DNA of 64,000 bases from Candidatus Parabeggiatoa sp. nov. 2. Its GTDB lineage: Bacteria > Pseudomonadota > Gammaproteobacteria > Beggiatoales > Beggiatoaceae. A model generated the notes under the pieces. The model was not told the DNA's origin, did not search any database, and saw only the letters and a list, made by a program, of their open reading frames with translations. A program made the translations under genes and the position numbers. Shown here in pieces: positions 42,519 to 60,137 of the stretch (the first letter of the stretch is position 1; every line of letters starts with the position of its first letter). The DNA lies in assembly GCA_002085445.1 (NCBI GenBank), contig NBMI01000051.1, positions 1 through 64,000 of the forward strand, in the 5' to 3' direction.

Positions 42519-43268
42519 ATGGGATTTTGGACGGCGTTTTACGCCATTTTATTCTATATAGCAACCCTGATTTTCGTGGGTGGATTGGCTTATAAAATCT
42601 ACCAATACGCTACCACGCCGGCGCCTTTTTCCGTACCCACCATGCCCGCTCCCTTAACGACCGGGGGTGTTATCCTGCGTGTTCTGAGCGAAGTCATCTT
42701 ATTCAAAAGCTTGTTTCGTTCCAACAAATGGATTTGGTTGTTCGGGATGCTGTTTCATGGAGCGTTGTGGGTCGTACTGTTTCGCCATCTACGCTATTTC
42801 GTAGCAGAGCCAGGGGCTTTGATTGTTCTGATACAACCCTTTGGCAAATATGGCAGTTTTGTTATGTTTTTTGGACTGCTTGGTTTGCTGGTACGACGTA
42901 TCGTTGTTGAACGGATTCGCTATATCAGTAGTCCTTCCGACTATTTAATGCTGATTTTGTTGCTGGTGATTGGTGGCAGTGGGACGATGATGAGCTTTGT
43001 CACGCACACTGATATTGTCCAGTTTAAAGCTTTCATGTTGGGCGTGATGTATTTTGACTGGCAACGTATTCCCACAGATGGCATATTATTGCTGCATCTC
43101 GCTTCAGTCATACTGTTGATGATTATTTTTCCGTTTAGCAAATTGCTGCATGCCCCGGGTGTGTTTTTTAGTCCTAGTCGCAACCAAGTCGATAATGCGC
43201 GGGAAAAACGCCACGTTGCTCCGTGGGCCATTGAAAAATTTGAAACTCCACCCCCGGTAGTGGATTAA
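42519..43268 (+). CDS. dsrM: DsrM, membrane cytochrome b of the DsrMKJOP complex
   Basis: 249 residues of a NarI-like cytochrome b with five to six membrane helices (first: FWTAFYAILFYIATLIFVGG). Membrane His candidates for heme b lie in GMLFHGALWVVLFRHLRYF and in LLLHLASVILL. It exchanges electrons between quinone and DsrK. GAAAAAGGA precedes the ATG. The stop overlaps the ribosome site of dsrK (TAAGGAGG), so the two are translationally linked. Confidence 0.96.
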   Translation: MGFWTAFYAILFYIATLIFVGGLAYKIYQYATTPAPFSVPTMPAPLTTGGVILRVLSEVILFKSLFRSNKWIWLFGMLFHGALWVVLFRHLRYFVAEPGALIVLIQPFGKYGSFVMFFGLLGLLVRRIVVERIRYISSPSDYLMLILLLVIGGSGTMMSFVTHTDIVQFKAFMLGVMYFDWQRIPTDGILLLHLASVILLMIIFPFSKLLHAPGVFFSPSRNQVDNAREKRHVAPWAIEKFETPPPVVD

Positions 43269-48513: not shown

Positions 48514-48865
48514 GTGTCATTAGTTAAAGTTGGACACCGCCAGACAATTTTTTTTCTCATTCCCACTCGTCAAATCAGTGCCATTAAGTTAATATATTCA
48601 GTTCAATGTTATTTCATGAACGTGGACAGTCAGGGAGAACCTGGAGTACAAGGCTTGCCTTGTACTTTGACACGGATTTTACTTGCACTTCTCTTGATTT
48701 ACTTTTAACATAATAAGGGCACTCACTTTTGGCGAGGGAATGGAAATCAAATCAATCCCCGCACACTTAAAAGGTAAACCTTGCACTCCTTATTAATGGC
48801 AACAAGGTAAACCTTGCATAATGAGTCGTAAAATCCGCGTAAGTAAGTACTGTTTGGAGAACATA
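48514..48865. other. Spacer after dsrJ with GGTAAACCTTGC repeats
   Basis: No credible gene; a 64-codon frame at 48514-48708 lacks a ribosome site and family features. An ACAAGGCTTGCCTTGT palindrome lies at about 48649-48664. Two copies of AAGGTAAACCTTGCA are at about 48771 and 48805, just upstream of the next gene. Confidence 0.55.
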
Positions 48866-50110
48866 ATGTCAATTGAACAAAAAGTTGAACAATTTGCTCG
48901 ACAAATTATTGAACTTCATGGTTTTCGTTTTAACGAAGGCTTTTCTTGCCTCATCCCGGACAAGGAGCCGTTTCCCTCCAATGAAGGACTGTTTTTGTGG
49001 GGTTTTTCCCAAAAGCGTATGCGCTTTGAAACGAAGGTTGAAAAGTTCCATACCTCTACCAGAATGAAGAGAATGGAACAAATGCTCAAATTGACGGAAA
49101 AGGAATACAAAAAACTTTTCTCGTCGGTTGAGGCTTATTTGAAATCTCTCAAAAAACTCGGTTTCGAGGAGATTGGTAAAGGTGTCAACCTGTTCGGTAG
49201 AACGAAGGTGTATAATGTTCAAGCCGACGCGAAGTTTTTTGAGAACAAATTGGTTCTTTTGAAGGAATTTGAGGAACTCAGCCTCGATAATCCGATTCTC
49301 GACTTTGCTGCAAAACACAGCTATTTTGAGGTTAAAGATCGGGATAAGCTGGCATGGGATAGTATTTTTGGAGGTGGAACGACCAAACCTTCAACCAAAC
49401 CCTCAACCAAACCTTCAACCAAACCCTCAACCAAACCTTCGACCAAGCCTTCAACAAAACCTTCAACCAAACCTTCAACCAAGCCTTCAACCAAACCTTC
49501 AACCAAAAAGTCAACTGGGAAGTCAACAGGGCCGTCTCGCACCAAAGCCGCGGCAGCCACCACGGCAGCAGCCACCACGGCGGCTGCCCCCACGGCAGCA
49601 GCCCCCACGGCGGCAGCCCCCACGGCGGCAGCCCCCACGGCGGCCGCGGCAGCCCCGAAGCATCTTGCTGACAAGCTCAAAAAATTGGCCGCGAGCCAAC
49701 CGGCCTTGGCTCTTGACTTGAAAGCTTGGAGCAGGCAAGTCAATGGCTTATACAAGAATGTTCGGACTTGGTTGTCTGAACATTCTAAAACGGGTTACCT
49801 CACTTTTAGCACCCGGAAAATAAAATTGTCTGATGTCAATTTAGGCGACTATGAAATTGACTCATTAGAGTTGGGCGTAGTGGGTGGACATCAATTGGTA
49901 TTCCAACCGGTTGAAATAAATATGCCGGGTGCTTCAGGTCGTGTTGATTTATCTCGTCGTGGTAACAATACTCACAAAGTCATGCTGTTACTCGTCGAAC
50001 AAGGTGACAACAATCTGCAATGGGAATTGTGGAAAAGTCTGGGGGATAAGCGGCTGCCTTTTGATAAAGAAGCACTTGAGGCTTTGTTGGCTCAATGGAT
50101 TGAATCCTGA
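48866..50110 (+). CDS. Unknown two-domain protein with Thr-Lys-Pro-Ser repeat linker
   Basis: 414 residues from ATG 48866 (TTTGGAGAAC before it; an in-frame ATG at 48821 has no ribosome site). Residues ~1-170 form a charged helical domain (QKVEQFARQIIELHGFRF, KEYKKLFSSVEAYLKSLKKL). A linker follows of about ten TKPS tetrads (12-bp DNA period), then KKSTGKSTGPS, then Ala-rich TAAAP pentads (15-bp period). The C-terminal ~140 residues form a mixed alpha/beta domain (KLSDVNLGDYEIDSLELGVV, VMLLLVEQGDNNLQWELW, DKEALEALLAQWIES). No signal peptide, membrane helix or cysteine cluster, so probably cytoplasmic. I do not recognise either domain. It sits inside the dsr locus between dsrJ and dsrO on the same strand, with no known link to sulfur metabolism. 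Confidence 0.8.
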   Translation: MSIEQKVEQFARQIIELHGFRFNEGFSCLIPDKEPFPSNEGLFLWGFSQKRMRFETKVEKFHTSTRMKRMEQMLKLTEKEYKKLFSSVEAYLKSLKKLGFEEIGKGVNLFGRTKVYNVQADAKFFENKLVLLKEFEELSLDNPILDFAAKHSYFEVKDRDKLAWDSIFGGGTTKPSTKPSTKPSTKPSTKPSTKPSTKPSTKPSTKPSTKPSTKKSTGKSTGPSRTKAAAATTAAATTAAAPTAAAPTAAAPTAAAPTAAAAAPKHLADKLKKLAASQPALALDLKAWSRQVNGLYKNVRTWLSEHSKTGYLTFSTRKIKLSDVNLGDYEIDSLELGVVGGHQLVFQPVEINMPGASGRVDLSRRGNNTHKVMLLLVEQGDNNLQWELWKSLGDKRLPFDKEALEALLAQWIES

Positions 50111-51362: not shown

Positions 51363-51660
51363 TTGTTCAGTAAAAACCCTGAGACTTTAGTTTTGATGGC
51401 CAATCGTACTGCAACCGGGCGAAGAGATTACTCTCATGACCAATCTCTTGAACCGGCAAGGTCTAAAAACTTTTTTATTGGAATAATTGACCGTGATTTG
51501 AATGCGGCAATAAACATTGAACGAAAAGAAAATACCGGGGGCTAACCGGGAATTGACGTGCGGGGACGTTTCTGGAAGTACTTCCAAAAGCAACCAGCTT
51601 TCCCGATACGCAAATTGAACCGTGAGCGATTTTTAGGCTCACAAATCAAGTAGCAGGAAC
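51363..51660 (+). pseudogene. Second TnpB C-terminal relic with right end
   Basis: The frame to 51545 ends IIDRDLNAAINIERKENTGG, the TnpB C-terminal block with the last RuvC Asp. Only the end of the gene is present. After the stop, CGGGAATTGACGTGCGGGGA and AAGCAACCAGCTTTC with a GTGAGCGA/GGCTCAC hairpin resemble the right ends of IS605-like elements. GCAACCAGCTT is shared with the relic at 38808-38950. It is distinct from the first relic. Confidence 0.75.
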
Positions 51661-52048
51661 TGGGGACATTACAAAAAAAAACGGCATTGATACCATGCCA
51701 AGGAACGATAAGATAATTGAACACTGATCACAGATCACATATGCCCCTTCCTTTGAAAAACCTGTCAAAACCCTTATGTCGGTAAGTCCTTGATGATTAT
51801 GAATGATGACTTATGAATTCCTCCCCTTTAAACTAATGAAGTGATCACTGAGCACTGAACACTGATATCCCTTGGCTAACGGGCATTTTGTACATAACTC
51901 GCTGAATATTAGAATAATTAAATTTGTCAAGGCGTCAATTATAATTGAGTGGGGGGTAAATATTAGTTTTAAAAAGGGTTTTTTTGGACCAGGGCAGGGG
52001 GGAGGTGTCGCTTTGCGCTCAGATTAATAATTATTTTCAAATATAACT
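51661..52048. other. Spacer upstream of dsrO with heptad words
   Basis: No gene. AACACTGATCACAGATCAC at about 51720-51740 and GTGATCACTGAGCACTGAAC at about 51842-51868 are heptad-type words. GGGGGGAGGTGTCGC (about 51998) is the only purine-rich tract, about 40 bp before the dsrO start, so dsrO has no close consensus ribosome site. Confidence 0.65.
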
Positions 52049-52807
52049 ATGAACGAAAAAACTTCACCTACCCAACGAGAACGCCGTGACTTTCTCAAAA
52101 CCACGGCAGTCGTCGCTGGGATGACGGTGGCACCCGGCGTACTGCTGTACAGTGTGTCTCAGGCGAAACAGGCTGAAGATGCAGTCACCTCAAAGGTACG
52201 TTGGGGAATGTTGATTGATACCAACAAATGTGCCAAAGGATGCAATGAGTGTGTGAGTGCTTGTGCAACCGAGCATGGTTTTATTGATGATCCCCACCGA
52301 GATAGCCATCCAGAAATGGCGGCGCAGTGGATACGCAAAGTAGGTTTGCGTGATAAGCAAACAAAAAAAGAATACTCTCTACCGGTGATGTGTCAGCATT
52401 GTGAACATCCACCTTGTGTGGATGTTTGTCCTACGGGTGCATCGTTTAAACGTGCTGATGGCATTGTCTTGGTAGACAGGCATATTTGTATTGGCTGCCG
52501 TTATTGCATGATGGCCTGTCCTTACAAAGCACGGTCGTTTATCCATGAAACACTAGAAAATCAGAAGCCCTATTCTCCGCGTGGTAAAGGCACCGTGGAA
52601 AGTTGCACTTTCTGTGTGCATCGGATCGATAAAGGCAAACAACCGGCCTGTGTAGAGGCTTGTAATAAGGCTGGTCACAAAGTTATGCTATTTGGAGATA
52701 TGAATGATCCAAGTAGTGAGATTTACAAAAAGTTGAAGGAGGTCAGTAGCACGGCATTGCGGCCTGATATGCGACTGAATCCGGGAATTCGTTATCAAGG
52801 ACTTTAG
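52049..52807 (+). CDS. dsrO: DsrO, periplasmic iron-sulfur subunit
   Basis: 252 residues with a twin-arginine signal (ERRDFLK, Arg12-Arg13, then TTAVVAGMTVAPGVLLY), so it is exported folded. Four four-Cys sets of the HybA/DmsB type: NKCAKGCNECVSAC, MCQHCEHPPCVDVCP, HICIGCRYCMMACP and SCTFCVHRIDKGKQPACVEAC. It links DsrJ and the quinone-reactive DsrP. The stop (TAG 52805-52807) is two bases before the dsrP ATG, so O and P are translationally coupled. Confidence 0.96.
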   Translation: MNEKTSPTQRERRDFLKTTAVVAGMTVAPGVLLYSVSQAKQAEDAVTSKVRWGMLIDTNKCAKGCNECVSACATEHGFIDDPHRDSHPEMAAQWIRKVGLRDKQTKKEYSLPVMCQHCEHPPCVDVCPTGASFKRADGIVLVDRHICIGCRYCMMACPYKARSFIHETLENQKPYSPRGKGTVESCTFCVHRIDKGKQPACVEACNKAGHKVMLFGDMNDPSSEIYKKLKEVSSTALRPDMRLNPGIRYQGL

Positions 52808-52809
52808 TT

Positions 52810-54021
52810 ATGAAGAATGTGACTTACAGTATCATTGAAGGCAAAAGTGTCGGTTTTTACGGTGGGATAGTGATATCGGTTTTATTTATTTTACTGGGCT
52901 TATTCGCAGCCTATAACATGGAGCATCACGGACATGTTATCACCGGCATGAGTAATCAGATTGTGTGGGGAATGCCCCATATTTTTGCCATTTTTCTTAT
53001 TTTGGCGGCATCAGGGGTACTGAATGTGGCATCAATCAGTTCCGTCTTTCGTAAGACTTTTTATCATCCCCTCGCCCGTTTATCCGCTTTGCTTGCCATT
53101 ACTTTACTTATTGGTGGGCTAAGTGTTTTAGTGCTGGATTTAGGTCGTCCAGATCGCCTCGTGGTTGCCATGACCAGTTACAACTTGAGCTCCATTTTTG
53201 CTTGGAATATGTTCTTATATAATGGATTTTTACTGGTATGCGTTGTGTATCTGTGGTTTATGATGGAGCGGCGTATGCAACGTTATTACCCCACCGTCGG
53301 CCTCGTTGCGTTTATCTGGCGTTTAATACTCACCACCGGTACTGGCTCAATTTTTGGTTTTTTGGTGGCGCGGGAAGCTTATAACACAGCGATTATGGCT
53401 CCTCTATTTATTGCCCTCTCATTAGTCTTAGGGCTTGCGGTTTTTTTGATTGTCTTAATTATTGATTGTTGGGAGACGCGCTGCCACTTGGGAGAAGCTA
53501 TCTTACATCGACCAAAAACCCTGTTAGGTGTATTTATTGCTGCGGTGTTTTATTTTGTGCTGGTTTATCATATCAGTCACCTGTATATGACCGGCCGTCA
53601 CGGGGTTGAATACTTTATACTGGCAAACGGTGGTATTTATACGGTACTTTTTTGGGGCGGCTATATGTTTTTAGGGACTGTACTGCCGTTGCTACTGCTT
53701 TACCACCAAAGATTTACTAAAAGCCGAGCCAGTGTTGCGGCGGCCTCTATACTGTCAATTCTAGGCGGATTTGCCTTATTGTATGTGATTATCATCGGTG
53801 GACAGGCCTACCCGTTGGAAATTTTCCCGGGTATGGAAGTCACGTCTTCAGACTTTTTTGACAAAGGCATACATGCTTATACGCCGAGTGGTTGGGAAAT
53901 CATGTTAGGCCTCAGCGGTGTCGCTATATCGGCGTTGTTGACCGTGATCGCCTTGAGAATCTTGCCATTTATGCCCCGTAGTTTGGCCGATGCCGATATC
54001 GATGACACATTTAAACATTGA
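52810..54021 (+). CDS. dsrP: DsrP, NrfD-type quinone-interacting membrane subunit
   Basis: 403 residues, about ten membrane helices, NrfD/PsrC family. It exchanges electrons between the quinone pool and DsrO. Conserved blocks: YNMEHHGHVITGMSNQIVWG, VLDLGRPDRLVVAMTSYNL, MFLYNGFLLVCVVYLWFMM, TGTGSIFGFLVAREAYNT, IIIGGQAYPLEIFPGM. Directly coupled to dsrO. A second, highly similar copy follows at 54477. Confidence 0.96.
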   Translation: MKNVTYSIIEGKSVGFYGGIVISVLFILLGLFAAYNMEHHGHVITGMSNQIVWGMPHIFAIFLILAASGVLNVASISSVFRKTFYHPLARLSALLAITLLIGGLSVLVLDLGRPDRLVVAMTSYNLSSIFAWNMFLYNGFLLVCVVYLWFMMERRMQRYYPTVGLVAFIWRLILTTGTGSIFGFLVAREAYNTAIMAPLFIALSLVLGLAVFLIVLIIDCWETRCHLGEAILHRPKTLLGVFIAAVFYFVLVYHISHLYMTGRHGVEYFILANGGIYTVLFWGGYMFLGTVLPLLLLYHQRFTKSRASVAAASILSILGGFALLYVIIIGGQAYPLEIFPGMEVTSSDFFDKGIHAYTPSGWEIMLGLSGVAISALLTVIALRILPFMPRSLADADIDDTFKH

Positions 54022-54476
54022 TTTATGGTAATTGGTATACTTTGCCGGGCTGAAAATTGGGTTTTTAACACCTCATTACTTTCATTAATAATTAATTATT
54101 AATTATTAATGACTCGTCGGGGGCCGATTAGCCGCGAAGCCTAATCGGCCCCATTCAATTACGGTGGATTTCGCAAAGCTAAGGAACCCTACTAACCGCA
54201 CTGGTGGAAAAATGTTACCTAAGAAGTTAGGAAGTGACTAAAAGTGCGGAACAATGCCGGGAGGGAAATACCAAAAAAACCTTCCTAGAAAGGGATGGTA
54301 TCTGTATGCTTCACCCAAGGACTTGCCACATTTTTAATCGCTCCTATTGAGTTATACTTAACTAGGCCACAAACTAAACTAAACTGTCATTTCTTGCAAC
54401 GGCCAAAGATTTCTCCCGTTGGTCGAAATGACAAAAGCGCAAGTTGTGCTGAGTATCTCCTAACTTGAACCTTGCC
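54022..54476. other. Spacer between the two dsrP copies
   Basis: No gene. An ATTAATAATTAATTATTAAT run (about 54082-54108), then TAATCGGCCCCATTCAATT with CTAAGGAACCCTACTAACCG (about 54135-54205), which resembles 23910-24215, then a TGTCATTTC...GAAATGACA unit (about 54384-54432). CTAACTTGAACC before the second dsrP offers no good ribosome site. Confidence 0.6.
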
Positions 54477-55682
54477 ATGAAAAATGTTACTTACCGCGTT
54501 ATTGGGGGCACACGCCGCACTGATTACGTTATATTAACGGTCTCGATTTTCTTTATTCTACTGGGCTTATTCGCCGCCTATCAAATGGAACATCATGGAC
54601 ATGTTATCACCGGCATGAGTAATCAGATTGTGTGGGGAATGCCCCATATTTTTGCCATTTTTATGATTTTGGCGGCCTCCGGGGTGCTGAATGTGGCATC
54701 AATCAGTTCCGTCTTTCGTAGGACTTTTTATCACCCCCACGCACGTTTATCAGTCTTGCTTGCCATTACTTTACTTATTGGTGGGCTGAGTGTTTTAGTG
54801 CTAGATTTAGGTCGTCCTGATCGCCTCGTGGTTGCCATGACCAGTTACAACTTAAAATCCATTTTTGCTTGGAATATGTTCTTATATAATGGGTTTATAC
54901 TGGTATGCGTCATATATCTATGGTTTATGATGGAACGGCGTATGCAGCGTTATTATCCTGCTGTTGGCTTTGTTGCGTTTATCTGGCGTTTAGTACTGAC
55001 GACCGGTACTGGCTCAATTTTTGGTTTTTTGGTGGCGCGGGAAGCCTATAACACCGCCATTATGGCTCCCCTGTTTATTGCCCTCTCTTTGTCTTTGGGA
55101 CTGGCAGTATTTCTGCTGGTGTTAATTATGCAATTTCGGTCACTGGGAGAAGGTGTATTGCACCGGCCCAAAATCCTGTTAGGGATGTTTGTTGGTACCG
55201 TGTTTTGTTTTGTACTGGTTTATCATCTCACGCATCTGTATTTTACCGGCCGTCACGGGGTTGAATACTTTATATTAGGCGGCGGTGGCGGTATCTATAC
55301 GGTACTGTTTTGGGGCGGCTATATTTTCTTAGGGACGATACTCCCGTTGCTACTCCTTTACCATGAAAGATTTTCTCGTAACCGTGCCAGTGTTGTAGTG
55401 GCATCGATGCTAACGATTGTAGGGGGATTTGCCTTATTATATGTGATTATTATCGGTGGACAGGCTTATCCATTAGACATCTTTCCGGGGATGGAAGTAA
55501 CCTCTTCAGGCTTTTTTGATGAAGTCGCCAGGCATACTTACACCCCGAGTCGTTGGGAAATGATGTTAGGTATGAGCGGCATTGCGATTTCAGCACTGCT
55601 CACTTTGTTGGCTTTGAAAATATTGCCATTTGTACCTCACAGTTCAGCTGATTTTGAAGTCGATCCTGAATTTCTGGAGTGA
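54477..55682 (+). CDS. dsrP: Second DsrP (NrfD-type) paralogue
   Basis: 401 residues from ATG 54477, aligned to MKNVTY of the first copy; a TTG at 54465 is the only earlier start. It shares long identical blocks with the copy at 52810, including the HHGHVITGMSNQIVWGMPHI and TSYN/FAWNMFLYNGF regions. Differences are concentrated in the N-terminus (RVIGGTRRTDYVILTVSIFF), one soluble loop (MQFRSLGEGVLHRPKILLG, lacking three residues around the first copy's DCWETRC) and the C-terminus (FFDEVARHTYTPSRWEMM). Both frames are intact, so either is potentially functional. It is not preceded by its own DsrO. Confidence 0.95.
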   Translation: MKNVTYRVIGGTRRTDYVILTVSIFFILLGLFAAYQMEHHGHVITGMSNQIVWGMPHIFAIFMILAASGVLNVASISSVFRRTFYHPHARLSVLLAITLLIGGLSVLVLDLGRPDRLVVAMTSYNLKSIFAWNMFLYNGFILVCVIYLWFMMERRMQRYYPAVGFVAFIWRLVLTTGTGSIFGFLVAREAYNTAIMAPLFIALSLSLGLAVFLLVLIMQFRSLGEGVLHRPKILLGMFVGTVFCFVLVYHLTHLYFTGRHGVEYFILGGGGGIYTVLFWGGYIFLGTILPLLLLYHERFSRNRASVVVASMLTIVGGFALLYVIIIGGQAYPLDIFPGMEVTSSGFFDEVARHTYTPSRWEMMLGMSGIAISALLTLLALKILPFVPHSSADFEVDPEFLE

Positions 55683-56508
55683 GGTATTGGTAATTGGTAA
55701 TAGCAAATCTGAGTACCGGACATTTTTTCTACTGTCATTTCGACCTGCAATCTTTTAAAACAGCAAGATTTCTCAAGTTCAAGTTCAAGTTCAAGTTCAA
55801 GTTCCCTCCGTTCAAAGGGATCGTCGGGACTCGAAATGACAATCAATGACTTAAAGAAATTGTCCGGTACAAAGATAGCAAATAGCGAATAGCAAATGGG
55901 CGTATCCGCTAGTTGGGGAGGCCAAATTCTAGTTATTTCGGTAATGAAGAATGAATTCCCTAAAACATTGAGAGGAAAACTGTTTTTCGGAATCATTTTT
56001 TGACGCAAAAACTGATTGAGAGAATTCATCCGTTTTTGCTCATAAAAACGCATTGATAGAAAAGAGGTTGTGGTTCTTCACTTATCAAAGCTTTTCTATT
56101 GACTTTCAAGCCTTTTAAGGCCTATATATTTTCATAAAAATAATTATCGAAGGCAGCCAACAGCTTGCATATGTTGTCTGAAAGCTCAAGTCCCCTAAAG
56201 GGGACTAAATAATTATCTGAATATCTATAGAACTTACGCATTGACAAACTTAAATTTTTGTATTCACTCTTAATATCAATGAGTTATGAATATTTTACCA
56301 ATGGCTAAATTGATGAAAATTGCCCAAAAAAACTCTCTTAGTTTTATATAAAAACGCCGTTATTCCTAACTAAAACGTCTATTTTACTCTAAAAACGCCG
56401 TTTATTCCTAAAACTCTCTTTTACTATAAAAAATCCGTTTATTCCAAAATCCGTTGTACTTACTCTCACTACACATGATCACTGTTCACTGATTACTGTT
56501 AACTGATT
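55683..56508. other. Spacer between dsrP2 and the TrpD2-like gene
   Basis: No gene. GTATTGGTAATTGGTAATAG (55684), a TGTCATTTCGACC...CGAAATGACA unit (55730-55850) with five AAGTTC hexamers inside it (about 55776-55805), a palindromic element (56122-56230), several AAAACGCCGTTTATTCC and AATCCGTTTATTCC words (56350-56455), then heptads (ATCACTG TTCACTG ATTACTG TTAACTG, about 56470-56500) up to the next ATG. Confidence 0.75.
56122..56230. mobile_element. CTATA/TCTATAG-ended palindromic element
   Basis: Ends CTATATATTTTCATA and TCTGAATATCTATAG. The core GTCCCCTAAAGGGGACTAAA is the inverse of the hairpin at 31684-31781. A related partial copy is at about 28498-28660. Confidence 0.75.
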
Positions 56509-57534
56509 ATGACGACAAGATTTTACGAAGAACACCCTTTTGCACAATATGTCCGTATTTTGGGCAAAGGCAAAAACGGCGCTCGCCCCTTAACACAAGA
56601 AGAAGCGTACTCCGCTATGCGTCTGATTATGGCGGAGGAAGTTGAGCCGGTACAGTTGGGGGCCTTTATGATGCTGATGCGCGTCAAAGAAGAAACCCAC
56701 GAAGAATTGGCGGGATTTATTCGAGCGGCGCGTGATTCTTTTAAATTGCCGACGGGCATGGTGGAAGTCGATTTAGATTGGTCGTCTTATGCCGGTAAGC
56801 GTCGGCATTTGCCTTGGTTTATTTTGTCTACTTTGCTGTTGGCAGAAAATGGCATCAAGGTATTTATGCACGGTACGAAAGGACATACTAATGGGCGTAT
56901 TTATACCCAAGATGTGTTGTCCTATTTAGGCATTGAATACGCCAAGTCATTTGAAGAGGCGGCTGAACAAATTAAGCAAAATAATTTTAGCTATTTGCCG
57001 CTGCAATATCTGTGTCCAAAATTACATGAAATCATTGAACTCCGCCCTCTCATGGGTTTGCGCTCTCCCGTCCACACGTTAGCCCGTATGCTCAATCCCT
57101 TTGATGCTCCCTACGTGATGCAAGGTATTTTTCACCCCGGTTATCGCCCAGTTCATCAAGAAGCCGCGTTGTTGCTCAATCAACCCCATTTGGCCGTGAT
57201 AAAAGGCGAAGGCGGTGAAATTGAACGTAATCCTGATATGGAGTGTCTGGTGCAAAGTGTCCATAATGGCGAACTTTCCGACGAAACCTGGCCGCCCTTA
57301 TTCAAGAAACGGCATGTCAAAGAGGAAGTCTTGGAGCCGCAACGTTTACCGGCAGTATGGCGCGGTGATATTGAAGAGAAATTTGCCGAGAGTGCTGTGG
57401 TAGGTACCGCGGCGATTGCTTTGAAATTGATGGGAAAAGCGGTGAGTATTGAAGAAGCGCAGGAAATGGCGCGGCAAATGTGGGCCAGTCGTCCTAAAGA
57501 AAAGTATGGGGCAGTGACGGCGTTGGATTTTTAG
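56509..57534 (+). CDS. ybiB: TrpD2/YbiB-like protein (anthranilate phosphoribosyltransferase fold)
   Basis: 341 residues of the glycosyltransferase family 3 fold: an N-terminal helical domain (LTQEEAYSAMRLIMAEEVEP, QLGAFMMLMRVKEETHEELA) and an alpha/beta domain (VFMHGTKGHTNGRIYTQDVL, ELRPLMGLRSPVHTLARMLN, HLAVIKGEGGEIERNPD). Compared with TrpD the phosphoribosyl pyrophosphate site is replaced (HGTKGH), as in YbiB/TrpD2 proteins, which bind DNA rather than make tryptophan. Heptad repeats reach within 10 bp of the ATG, with no clear Shine-Dalgarno. A partial copy of its 3' end lies at 59811. Confidence 0.85.
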   Translation: MTTRFYEEHPFAQYVRILGKGKNGARPLTQEEAYSAMRLIMAEEVEPVQLGAFMMLMRVKEETHEELAGFIRAARDSFKLPTGMVEVDLDWSSYAGKRRHLPWFILSTLLLAENGIKVFMHGTKGHTNGRIYTQDVLSYLGIEYAKSFEEAAEQIKQNNFSYLPLQYLCPKLHEIIELRPLMGLRSPVHTLARMLNPFDAPYVMQGIFHPGYRPVHQEAALLLNQPHLAVIKGEGGEIERNPDMECLVQSVHNGELSDETWPPLFKKRHVKEEVLEPQRLPAVWRGDIEEKFAESAVVGTAAIALKLMGKAVSIEEAQEMARQMWASRPKEKYGAVTALDF

Positions 57535-58797: not shown

Positions 58798-59810
58798 CAA
58801 ACTTGAGTTTGACAGGAGTTTAGTTCGGCAATGACTCCTGTTACCCGTCAATAGAACATTGACAGAATACTAGGCTGGGGTGGTGAAAATAATTAATAAT
58901 TAATTATTAATGAAAGTAATGATATTTAACTGATTGTTTTTACGAGTAATTTGTACTTTACAATTTGCGCTTTTGTCATTTAACTTCGTTGAGCTTCGGT
59001 TCGAGCTTTGCTAGAATATTTCGGCTGTGTCCCACTTATCCGACAGACTTTGAGTTGTCTTGCCGCTTTAAAGGTAAGGTTTCTTTTGAGGGCCCTGTTT
59101 TAAAATTGATTTGGTAAGCTTTTGTTAATGGCTTACCATACCAAGGTGTCTACATTAAACGCTTTTTTGAGGGCCAGGTTAGCAAATTGATTTGATTGAA
59201 GGCCCTATTGATAAAAACTTCTAAAAGGACAAGTGGGACACACCCAATATTTCTCCTACCTGATAAGATTTCTCTCAAGCGAAATGACAGAAAGAGCTAT
59301 GTTTATGACGGTGCTCAGTATAATAAGAGGATTTTATAGTTCCTTTTTCATTTTTATGGAACAAAAACGGGACAAACAATGGAACTACAATTAACCTAAA
59401 GACACCTTATTTTCATCACCCCAGGGTAGGGCTCAATGCCATTAAGTTAAGGGCAACCATAAAGGATTGCCCCTACATAACATGACGGTTCGTAGGGGCA
59501 ATCCCACGTGCAAAGCCCTCACGAAAAAGCTTAACTCATTAAACTCATTAATCATTAATCATTAATTGTTAATTATTTTCACCACCCCAAGGGCCGTCCA
59601 TCAATAAACCAATCATTTAAATATCATTAAACTCATTAATCATTAATTGTTAATTATTTTCACCACCCCAGGGTAGGGCCGTCCATCAATAAACCGCGTT
59701 TTTACTCGTCGTGGTGGACACCAGACATTACACACGAAAAAACAACTTAAATATTTGAGATAAAACTAAAAACTGTTTTAGTCTATGTGTTAAGTATGCT
59801 GTCCCTCACT
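58798..59810. other. 1-kb repeat spacer
   Basis: No gene. ATTAATAATTAATTATTAAT (58892), a TCATTT..CGAGCTTTGCTAG region (58970-59010), two GAGGGCC(C/A)(T/G)G units related to the 80-bp repeats at 61151 (about 59093 and 59174), a CGAAATGACA unit (59255-59330), a TTGCCCCTACAT/GTAGGGGCAA opposed pair (59470-59500), and a ~90-bp tandem duplication (ATCATTAATTGTTAATTATT, GGCCGTCCATCAATAAACC) at about 59550-59695. Confidence 0.7.
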
Positions 59811-60137
59811 ATCAATCAACCCCATTTAGCCGTGATAAAAGGCGAAGGCGGTGAGATTGAACGTAATCCTGATATGGAGTGTTTGGTGCAAAGTGTCCAT
59901 AATGGCGAACTTTCCAATGAAACGTGGCCGCCCTTATTCAAGAAACGGCATGTCAAAGAGGAAGTGTTGGAGCCGCAAGGTTTACTGACAGTGTTTTGCT
60001 TTGAGATTGAGGATGAATTTGCCGAGGCTGCTGTGGTAGGTACCGCGGCAATTGCTTTGAAATTGATGGGAAAAGCGGTGAGTATTGATGAAGCGCAGGA
60101 AATGGCGCGGCAAATGTGGGAAAATCGGCTATCATAA
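59811..60137 (+). pseudogene. Duplicated 3' third of the TrpD2-like gene
   Basis: Near-identical to 57174-57512: NQPHLAVIKGEGGEIERNPD, then CLVQSVHNGELSNETWPPLF, then AAIALKLMGKAVSIDEAQEM. It encodes about 105 residues of the C-terminal domain without the rest. The frame can be read from an upstream in-frame ATG (59796 or 59787) in unrelated sequence, but there is no clear ribosome site. A divergent patch replaces RLPAVWRGDIEEK by GLLTVFCFEIEDE. Probably a non-functional fragment of a recent duplication. Confidence 0.8.

Follow-up and report, generated by a model that had tools for sequence, protein, structure and literature searches.

dsrP-B, a probable old paralogue of DsrP with a likely gene-conversion tract, in the dsr locus of Candidatus Parabeggiatoa sp. 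nov. 2

Two intact NrfD-type genes, designated dsrP-A and dsrP-B, stand in tandem at the end of the dsr locus of Candidatus Parabeggiatoa sp. nov. 2. dsrP-B is very probably an old paralogue that belongs to a separate clade, and we are confident that its codons ~45–148 were overwritten by dsrP-A in this lineage via gene conversion. The explanation as a whole, i.e. an old, tract-converted DsrP paralogue serving as an alternative module with different cytoplasmic contacts, is evenly poised in our estimation. The pair is real and informative, and it represents a known kind of protein, not a new system. DsrP is the proposed quinone and ion-conducting subunit of the oxidative Dsr pathway; to our knowledge, the exit of electrons from this pathway is unsettled. 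The DNA analyzed (“the window”, 64,000 nt) belongs to a genome of 8.45 Mb in 406 contigs that is 91% complete. The features discussed are listed below.

52049..52807, + strand: dsrO, Tat-exported periplasmic 4x[4Fe-4S] protein (NCBIfam NF045797, 319.5 bits vs. a cut-off of 200)
52810..54021, + strand: dsrP-A, canonical NrfD-type DsrP, 403 aa, 10 predicted TMHs (PF03916, 165.7 bits)
52942..53253, + strand: putative donor tract in dsrP-A, codons 45–148 (site-likelihood scan)
53461..53484, + strand: TMH5-6 loop of dsrP-A, I-D-C-W-E-T-R-C, codons 218–225, with the Cys pair (alignment, 49 rows)
54022..54476, + strand: intergenic region between the dsrP copies (hairpin at 54120–54152, without a T-tract terminator)
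54477..55682, + strand: dsrP-B, probable paralogue from an older clade, 401 aa from the ATG (PF03916, 179.2 bits; tree)
54609..54920, + strand: putative recipient tract in dsrP-B, codons 45–148, probably overwritten by dsrP-A (dS, trees, scans)
55128..55139, + strand: TMH5-6 loop of dsrP-B, M-Q-F-R; it lacks the Cys pair and is shorter by four residues (alignment)
55206..55208, + strand: TGT codon of dsrP-B, encoding Cys at the site of A position 248 (the remaining 48 rows of the 49 have Tyr)

The dsr genes of the window start at 42519 (dsrM), 43278 (dsrK), 45201 (dsrL-like; the name is our interpretation of the sequence), 48097 (dsrJ), 48821 (an unnamed gene), 52049 (dsrO), 52810 (dsrP-A), and 54477 (dsrP-B). 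The ATG at 54477 was taken as the likely start of dsrP-B; the open-reading-frame listing used an in-frame TTG at 54465. A first-pass annotation of this DNA had correctly placed two intact NrfD-type genes here, with the second ending at 55682 and only the first coupled to dsrO: dsrP-A begins 2 nt behind dsrO, and dsrP-B begins 455 nt behind dsrP-A. A trpD2-like gene (56509–57534) is located downstream of dsrP-B. Among the relatives' loci that contain both genes, dsrP is followed by trpD2 with nothing recognized between them in L090, L089, L092, L093, L091, L040, L041, L057, L048, and L051. The synteny of dsrP-A is kept in relatives, and because the dsrP–trpD2 junction is otherwise uninterrupted in them, dsrP-B is an extra gene at this position. 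A second duplicated fragment, a partial trpD2-like copy (59787–60137, 79% over 120 aa), lies just downstream.

The 455-nt region between the dsrP copies folds better than 100 of 100 shuffled sequences (z = -4.87). It contains a perfect GC-rich hairpin with 12-bp arms (54120–54152) that is the single instance in the genome and has no T-tract. No intrinsic terminator was found between the copies by pattern search, and no known RNA family matched within 51500–57000. The protein encoded at 48821–50110, between dsrJ and dsrO, features a long (STKP)n and Ala/Pro linker joining two conserved ends. It had no Pfam or NCBIfam match; a relative was located upstream of dsrO in 22 of 24 dsrO-dsrP loci, and was not found in L047 and L053.

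Both proteins exceed the curated cut-off of PF03916 (NrfD; 25.8 bits), with scores of 165.7 bits for A and 179.2 bits for B. Both fall below the 350-bit cut-off of the NCBIfam DsrP model NF045798 (60.6 and 58.0 bits, respectively), whose description refers to sulfate reduction and which fails to recognize even A, the canonical copy. The AlphaFold models (pLDDT 77.8 and pTM 0.83 for A; 79.7 and 0.84 for B) each feature ten long helices and agree with the definition of NrfD as two four-helix bundles with 8–10 TMHs. A fold search carried out with A returned 8k9e_C, 6lod_C, 6btm_C, and 6f0k_C, then 6btm_F, as the best solved folds, and PsrC (2vpw_C) was also found; no solved DsrP structure was matched by sequence in the PDB. 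In the passages of PMC8076601 that treat A. vinosum DsrP, 18 residues are assigned to the quinone site and the half-channels. All 18 are present in A and in three B proteins, and 17 are present in the window B (the exception is Y248C). The quinone-site residues H57, D110, S128, and T178 are complete (4/4) in A and in every B protein, and the 14 listed N- and P-side half-channel residues are found as 14/14 in A, 13/14 in the window B, and 14/14 in the other three B proteins. A is placed directly behind dsrO; B is not in any of the four genomes that contain it. As dsrP-B does not stand behind dsrO in the dsrMKJOP locus, it was filed as a DsrP paralogue and not as the DsrP subunit. Its clade nests among the beggiatoacean DsrP rows of the tree.

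The two window proteins are 79.9% identical, and their genes are 81.5% identical over 1197 aligned bases. The long identical stretches that had been noted earlier are present, as exact runs of 66, 44, 35, 35, 34, 32, and 30 nt. The accompanying claim, that divergence is limited to the termini and one loop, holds for amino-acid changes, which cluster at codons 1–26, in the loop at ~218–229, and at the C-terminus, but it does not hold for synonymous sites: outside the N-terminal bundle, silent sites are strongly diverged along most of the gene. A codon-level substitution map, which the annotation had proposed as a check, features a tract of low NG86 dS (0.25, codons 27–145) but a dS of 0.82 in codons 146–403. 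Likewise, 89 of 301 same-residue codons differ between A and B, with 16 of 105 inside codons 27–145 and 73 of 196 outside. Given this contrast, the close match in the N-terminal bundle and the conservation seen in the remaining helices are separate phenomena.

dsrP-like matches were found in 37 of the 42 genomes of the family; an order-level search gave the same 42. The alignment comprised 49 rows, and partial, duplicate, or more distant matches were kept out (e.g. G009, G018, G019, G034, G035, and G038:C168; also L059, L061, L063, L071–L075, and L077–L081). The outgroups L069, L070, and L076 were dropped for the 46-row protein tree, and 27 of the 49 rows were used for DNA trees and scans. Four of the 42 genomes, representing three genera, contain a B-type copy (the window genome, G030, G022, and G010). 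It is in tandem behind A in two of the four, with a spacing of 248 nt in G030; in G022 and G010 it is on short contigs that contain no other dsr genes. Outside the two tandem cases, the neighbors of B have no gene in common between genomes. In HSG11 (L085 503–5758), B stands alone behind a gene for a 973-aa NHL-repeat multihaem c-type cytochrome, then a rhomboid-like gene (both names are our interpretation).

The four B proteins constitute one clade (support 100/99), and the grouping of A with B was rejected both over the whole gene (p-AU = 0.0019) and over codons 150–403 (p-AU = 0.006). Since this clade is common to several genera, the duplication, or transfer, is older than the species. The first-pass suggestion of a recent tandem duplication in this species, for which the tandem position, the 80% identity, and the long identical runs would speak, is contradicted by these groupings, in which the window B joins the B of three other genomes and not its neighbor A, and we regard it as scarcely credible. 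The patchy distribution of B may reflect vertical loss or transfer alike. The absence of B from close relatives, which the annotation had named, together with a lack of transcription, as what would refute its reading, was found in part: among same-genus genomes, B is present in G030 but missing from G028 and G029, whose contigs are unbroken from dsrP to trpD2 and had no B remnant between these genes. Because G028 is ~90% and G029 ~80% complete, a B located elsewhere in them could have been missed. The upstream regions of the four B genes had no common element beyond short chance-like matches, and neither B nor its relatives were found on viral contigs. A second dsrP copy in G033 was rejected as B because it is A-like and has its own dsrO. 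A fragment in G038 (L086 3–908) was rejected as a distant partial NrfD (45% identity); its short contig, on which it adjoins a methionyl-tRNA-synthetase-like gene, is possibly from another organism. A literature search within PMC returned no account of Beggiatoaceae with a second DsrP.

Several results argue for gene conversion within dsrP-B. In a DNA tree of codons 27–145, the window A and window B pair together (99/95) in a set with the GMC7 A (95/88), while codons 150–403 place the window B with the HSG14 B (97/83). The 145/150 split was picked after the dS profile had been seen; the site-likelihood scan is independent of it. In that scan, codons 45–148 favor A+B by 31.4 log units, and the remainder favors the B clade by 96.7; none of 5000 codon shuffles reached the score of the segment. 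Control scans featured no notable segment (shuffles as high: HSG14, 789/2000; HSG11, 1092/2000; A versus a foreign B, 814/2000), and their sums over codons 45–148, in which negative values are for the pair, were -0.1 (HSG14), +24.1 (HSG11), +19.3 (RS_1_20), and +3.1 (A versus foreign B). A is the probable donor because the tract nests beside A genes. The tract has few diagnostic sites, and they disagree (A-like at 55.3, 81.2, and 82.3; B-like at 109.3), so it either has soft edges or is a patchwork. Alternatively, the similarity of the tract could stem solely from constraint that is strongest in the N-terminal bundle of the protein. Consistent with this, dS between the window A and its nearest orthologue, the GMC7 A, is also lower there (0.44, compared to 0.79 in the remainder), and an AU test on the tract alone did not reject monophyly of the B clade (log-likelihood 19.4 lower, p = 0.11). 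However, dS in codons 27–145 is 1.32, 1.45, and 0.86 in the A/B pairs of HSG14, HSG11, and RS_1_20, respectively; the window A is closer to the window B (0.25) than to its nearest orthologue; and no such segment appeared at codons 45–148 of the controls. Constraint without conversion is thus improbable. The other option of the first-pass annotation, that the copies are kept similar by gene conversion, survives for codons ~45–148, in this lineage and with A as donor, but fails for the remainder of the gene; with silent divergence elsewhere, the identical stretches are accounted for by the tract plus ordinary constraint.

The sides of the membrane on which A and B differ were assessed from the models. 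According to passages of PMC8076601, both termini are on the P-side in 8-helix NrfD forms, and 10-helix forms, including A. vinosum DsrP, have two additional helices equivalent to ActC helices A and B. One additional helix is present at each end of our models, so both termini are predicted to be cytoplasmic. Charge counts in the two copies agree with this placement: Lys and Arg number 11 and 10 in the 56 and 52 residues of the predicted cytoplasmic loops, and 5 and 7 in the 82 and 84 residues of the periplasmic loops. Paralogue-specific divergence was calculated per column as within-group minus between-group identity, using the three unconverted B rows and 18 A-type rows that were picked as near relatives among 45 non-B rows. 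Its mean was 0.218 in 58 cytoplasmic columns vs. 0.029 in 83 periplasmic columns (Mann-Whitney p = 3e-5). Three other choices of boundaries gave 0.151–0.178 vs. 0.020–0.031 (p = 1.5e-4 to 7e-4). Codons 218–220 joined the cytoplasmic set after the alignment had been seen, and a repeat test omitted them. The difference between sides stayed when the four-residue deletion in the TMH5-6 loop was left out (p = 2.6e-4), the columns being not fully independent. In the modeled topology, the paralogue-specific changes (N-terminus, TMH5-6 loop, and C-terminus) are probably mainly on the cytoplasmic face, and the DsrO-facing side appears conserved between A and B. The periplasmic loop at 260–275 contains up to three paralogue-specific positions.

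In most beggiatoacean DsrP, the TMH5-6 loop opens with D-C-x-x-x-x-C. Both C220 and C225 occur in 23 of 49 rows of the alignment, whose more distant rows all lack the pair. In all four B proteins, M-Q-F-R replaces this stretch and is four residues shorter. The single DsrP of M2_G024 and that of CSMAG2822_G025 also lack the pair; as the M2 DsrP nevertheless adjoins dsrO (L051), a DsrP can be linked to dsrO without having the pair. At a guess, it could form a disulfide or serve as a contact, redox or metal, on the cytoplasmic side. Of the 49 rows, 48 have Tyr at position 248, and the window B has Cys. Y248 is a proposed P-side half-channel residue in the passages on DsrP in PMC8076601, and the loss of an otherwise invariant channel tyrosine is compatible with a weakened spare copy.

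Candidate partners for B were sought in the genomes that contain it. A and B were the only NrfD proteins found in the window genome in the PF03916 search. Of five DsrO-like matches in this assembled genome, none is a second DsrO, for which the annotation had recommended a search: besides DsrO itself, they are relatives of Mo-enzyme type, which we interpret as a SoeB-type protein beside a DmsC-type membrane subunit, a NarH-type protein, a small Fe-S protein beside a Mo enzyme, and an EBDH/DMSO-reductase-type beta subunit. G030, G022, and G010 contain one DsrO each (69–80% identity) and nine weaker Fe-S matches (38–48% identity). The three of these that were inspected (G010:C30, G022:C424, and G022:C197) were rejected as a second DsrO, being in Mo-enzyme-type loci with their own membrane partners. 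An additional DsrM was rejected as the partner of B, since each of the four B genomes has one DsrM. Each also has one DsrK, plus a remote DsrK relative (33%) in G000. With no spare DsrO at hand, the available periplasmic partner of B, if it works in electron transfer, is the same DsrO.

We propose that an old dsrP paralogue has stayed intact in a few genomes of giant sulfur bacteria (Beggiatoaceae sensu lato), and that in this lineage a stretch of dsrP-A (~codons 45–148), which includes three of the four residues proposed for the quinone site, was probably copied into it. B would still be a quinone-binding, ion-conducting NrfD module, and it could dock the same DsrO, given that its periplasmic loops are mostly not paralogue-specific. 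Our best guess is that B may serve as an alternative quinone/proton module that shares DsrO, giving the Dsr electron-transfer complex an alternative membrane module with different cytoplasmic contacts (on the DsrK/DsrM side or with another protein). This functional reading is tentative and falls somewhat short of an even chance; the presence of B on contigs without other dsr genes in two of four genomes makes a shared Dsr complex fit less well. It is doubtful, in addition, that two interchangeable or simultaneous NrfD modules operate on one DsrO in a doubling like that of ActC/ActF, with a Cys-free cytoplasmic dock routing electrons or protons differently and conversion keeping the quinone-binding bundle common.

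Alternatively, dsrP-B could be a redundant or decaying spare from an old duplication that has been mostly lost, with the window copy going and conversion slowing its decay. Its occurrence in only 4 of 42 genomes and the Cys at position 248 of the window B suggest weak constraint, and the want of a common gene neighbor outside the tandem cases also speaks for this possibility. On the other hand, the reading frame of B is intact in all four genomes; dN is well below dS (0.12 and 0.90, window B vs. HSG14 B, codons 146–403); the window B keeps the other 17 published residues; and the end branches of B (0.067–0.19) are within the range of A. A decaying spare is therefore the less probable account, albeit one to be taken seriously. 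The first-pass annotation had instead supposed that the variable parts decide the periplasmic partner. B is indeed not adjacent to dsrO, the HSG11 B is downstream of the cytochrome/NHL gene with the rhomboid-like gene between, and the loop at 260–275 has a few specific positions. That cytochrome neighbor, however, occurs in one of four genomes, and the variable parts are predicted to be cytoplasmic. As the divergence is mainly on that side, A and B are the only NrfD proteins, and there is no second DsrO among Fe-S relatives that are of Mo-enzyme type with their own neighbors, selection of a different periplasmic partner is unlikely. A DsrO-sharing module with altered cytoplasmic contacts remains our preferred reading. 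If true, a second DsrP that is altered on the cytoplasmic side but unchanged on the quinone/DsrO side would uncouple two functions that otherwise go together. The residues singled out are C220/C225, the N-terminal R13/D16, and Y248.

Known systems resemble the pair in part. The DsrP of sulfur oxidizers (the “DsrP2” branch in passages of PMC8076601, e.g. Allochromatium vinosum Alvin_1262) has the same NrfD fold, 10 TMHs, and quinone-site/half-channel residues (18 of 18 in A, 17 of 18 in the window B). The genomes searched typically have a single copy, placed behind dsrO, whereas B has no dsrO of its own, differs at the predicted cytoplasmic face, and has lost the local Cys pair. The labels A and B are used here because the published names DsrP1/DsrP2 mean something else. 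ActC and ActF of alternative complex III, the best solved folds for A (10–18% identity), provide an earlier example of a single complex with two NrfD subunits (in part from passages of PMC8076601); unlike A and B, they are separate branches of the NrfD tree in that source. PsrC (2vpw_C) has the fold of A and, in passages of the same source, a P-side quinone site; it differs from the 10-helix A and B in having 8 TMHs and being part of a Mo-enzyme complex. In the dsrOhPh-tetrahaem locus of cable bacteria, as described in passages of PMC13047784, a second DsrP-type protein is likewise found outside the dsr operon. There, the protein is accompanied by a DsrO homologue and groups near reductive DsrP, whereas B has no DsrO and falls within beggiatoacean DsrP.

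The mosaic is a warning that, in polyploid giant bacteria, identity measured over whole genes can mask old paralogues. PMC5587575 includes a discussion of gene conversion in polyploid giant sulfur bacteria, in passages that are not about dsrP. In the RS_1_20 pair (L084 and L088), a weak pairing segment was observed at codons 342–366 (24 of 2000 shuffles as high), which is suggestive only of a second, independent conversion.
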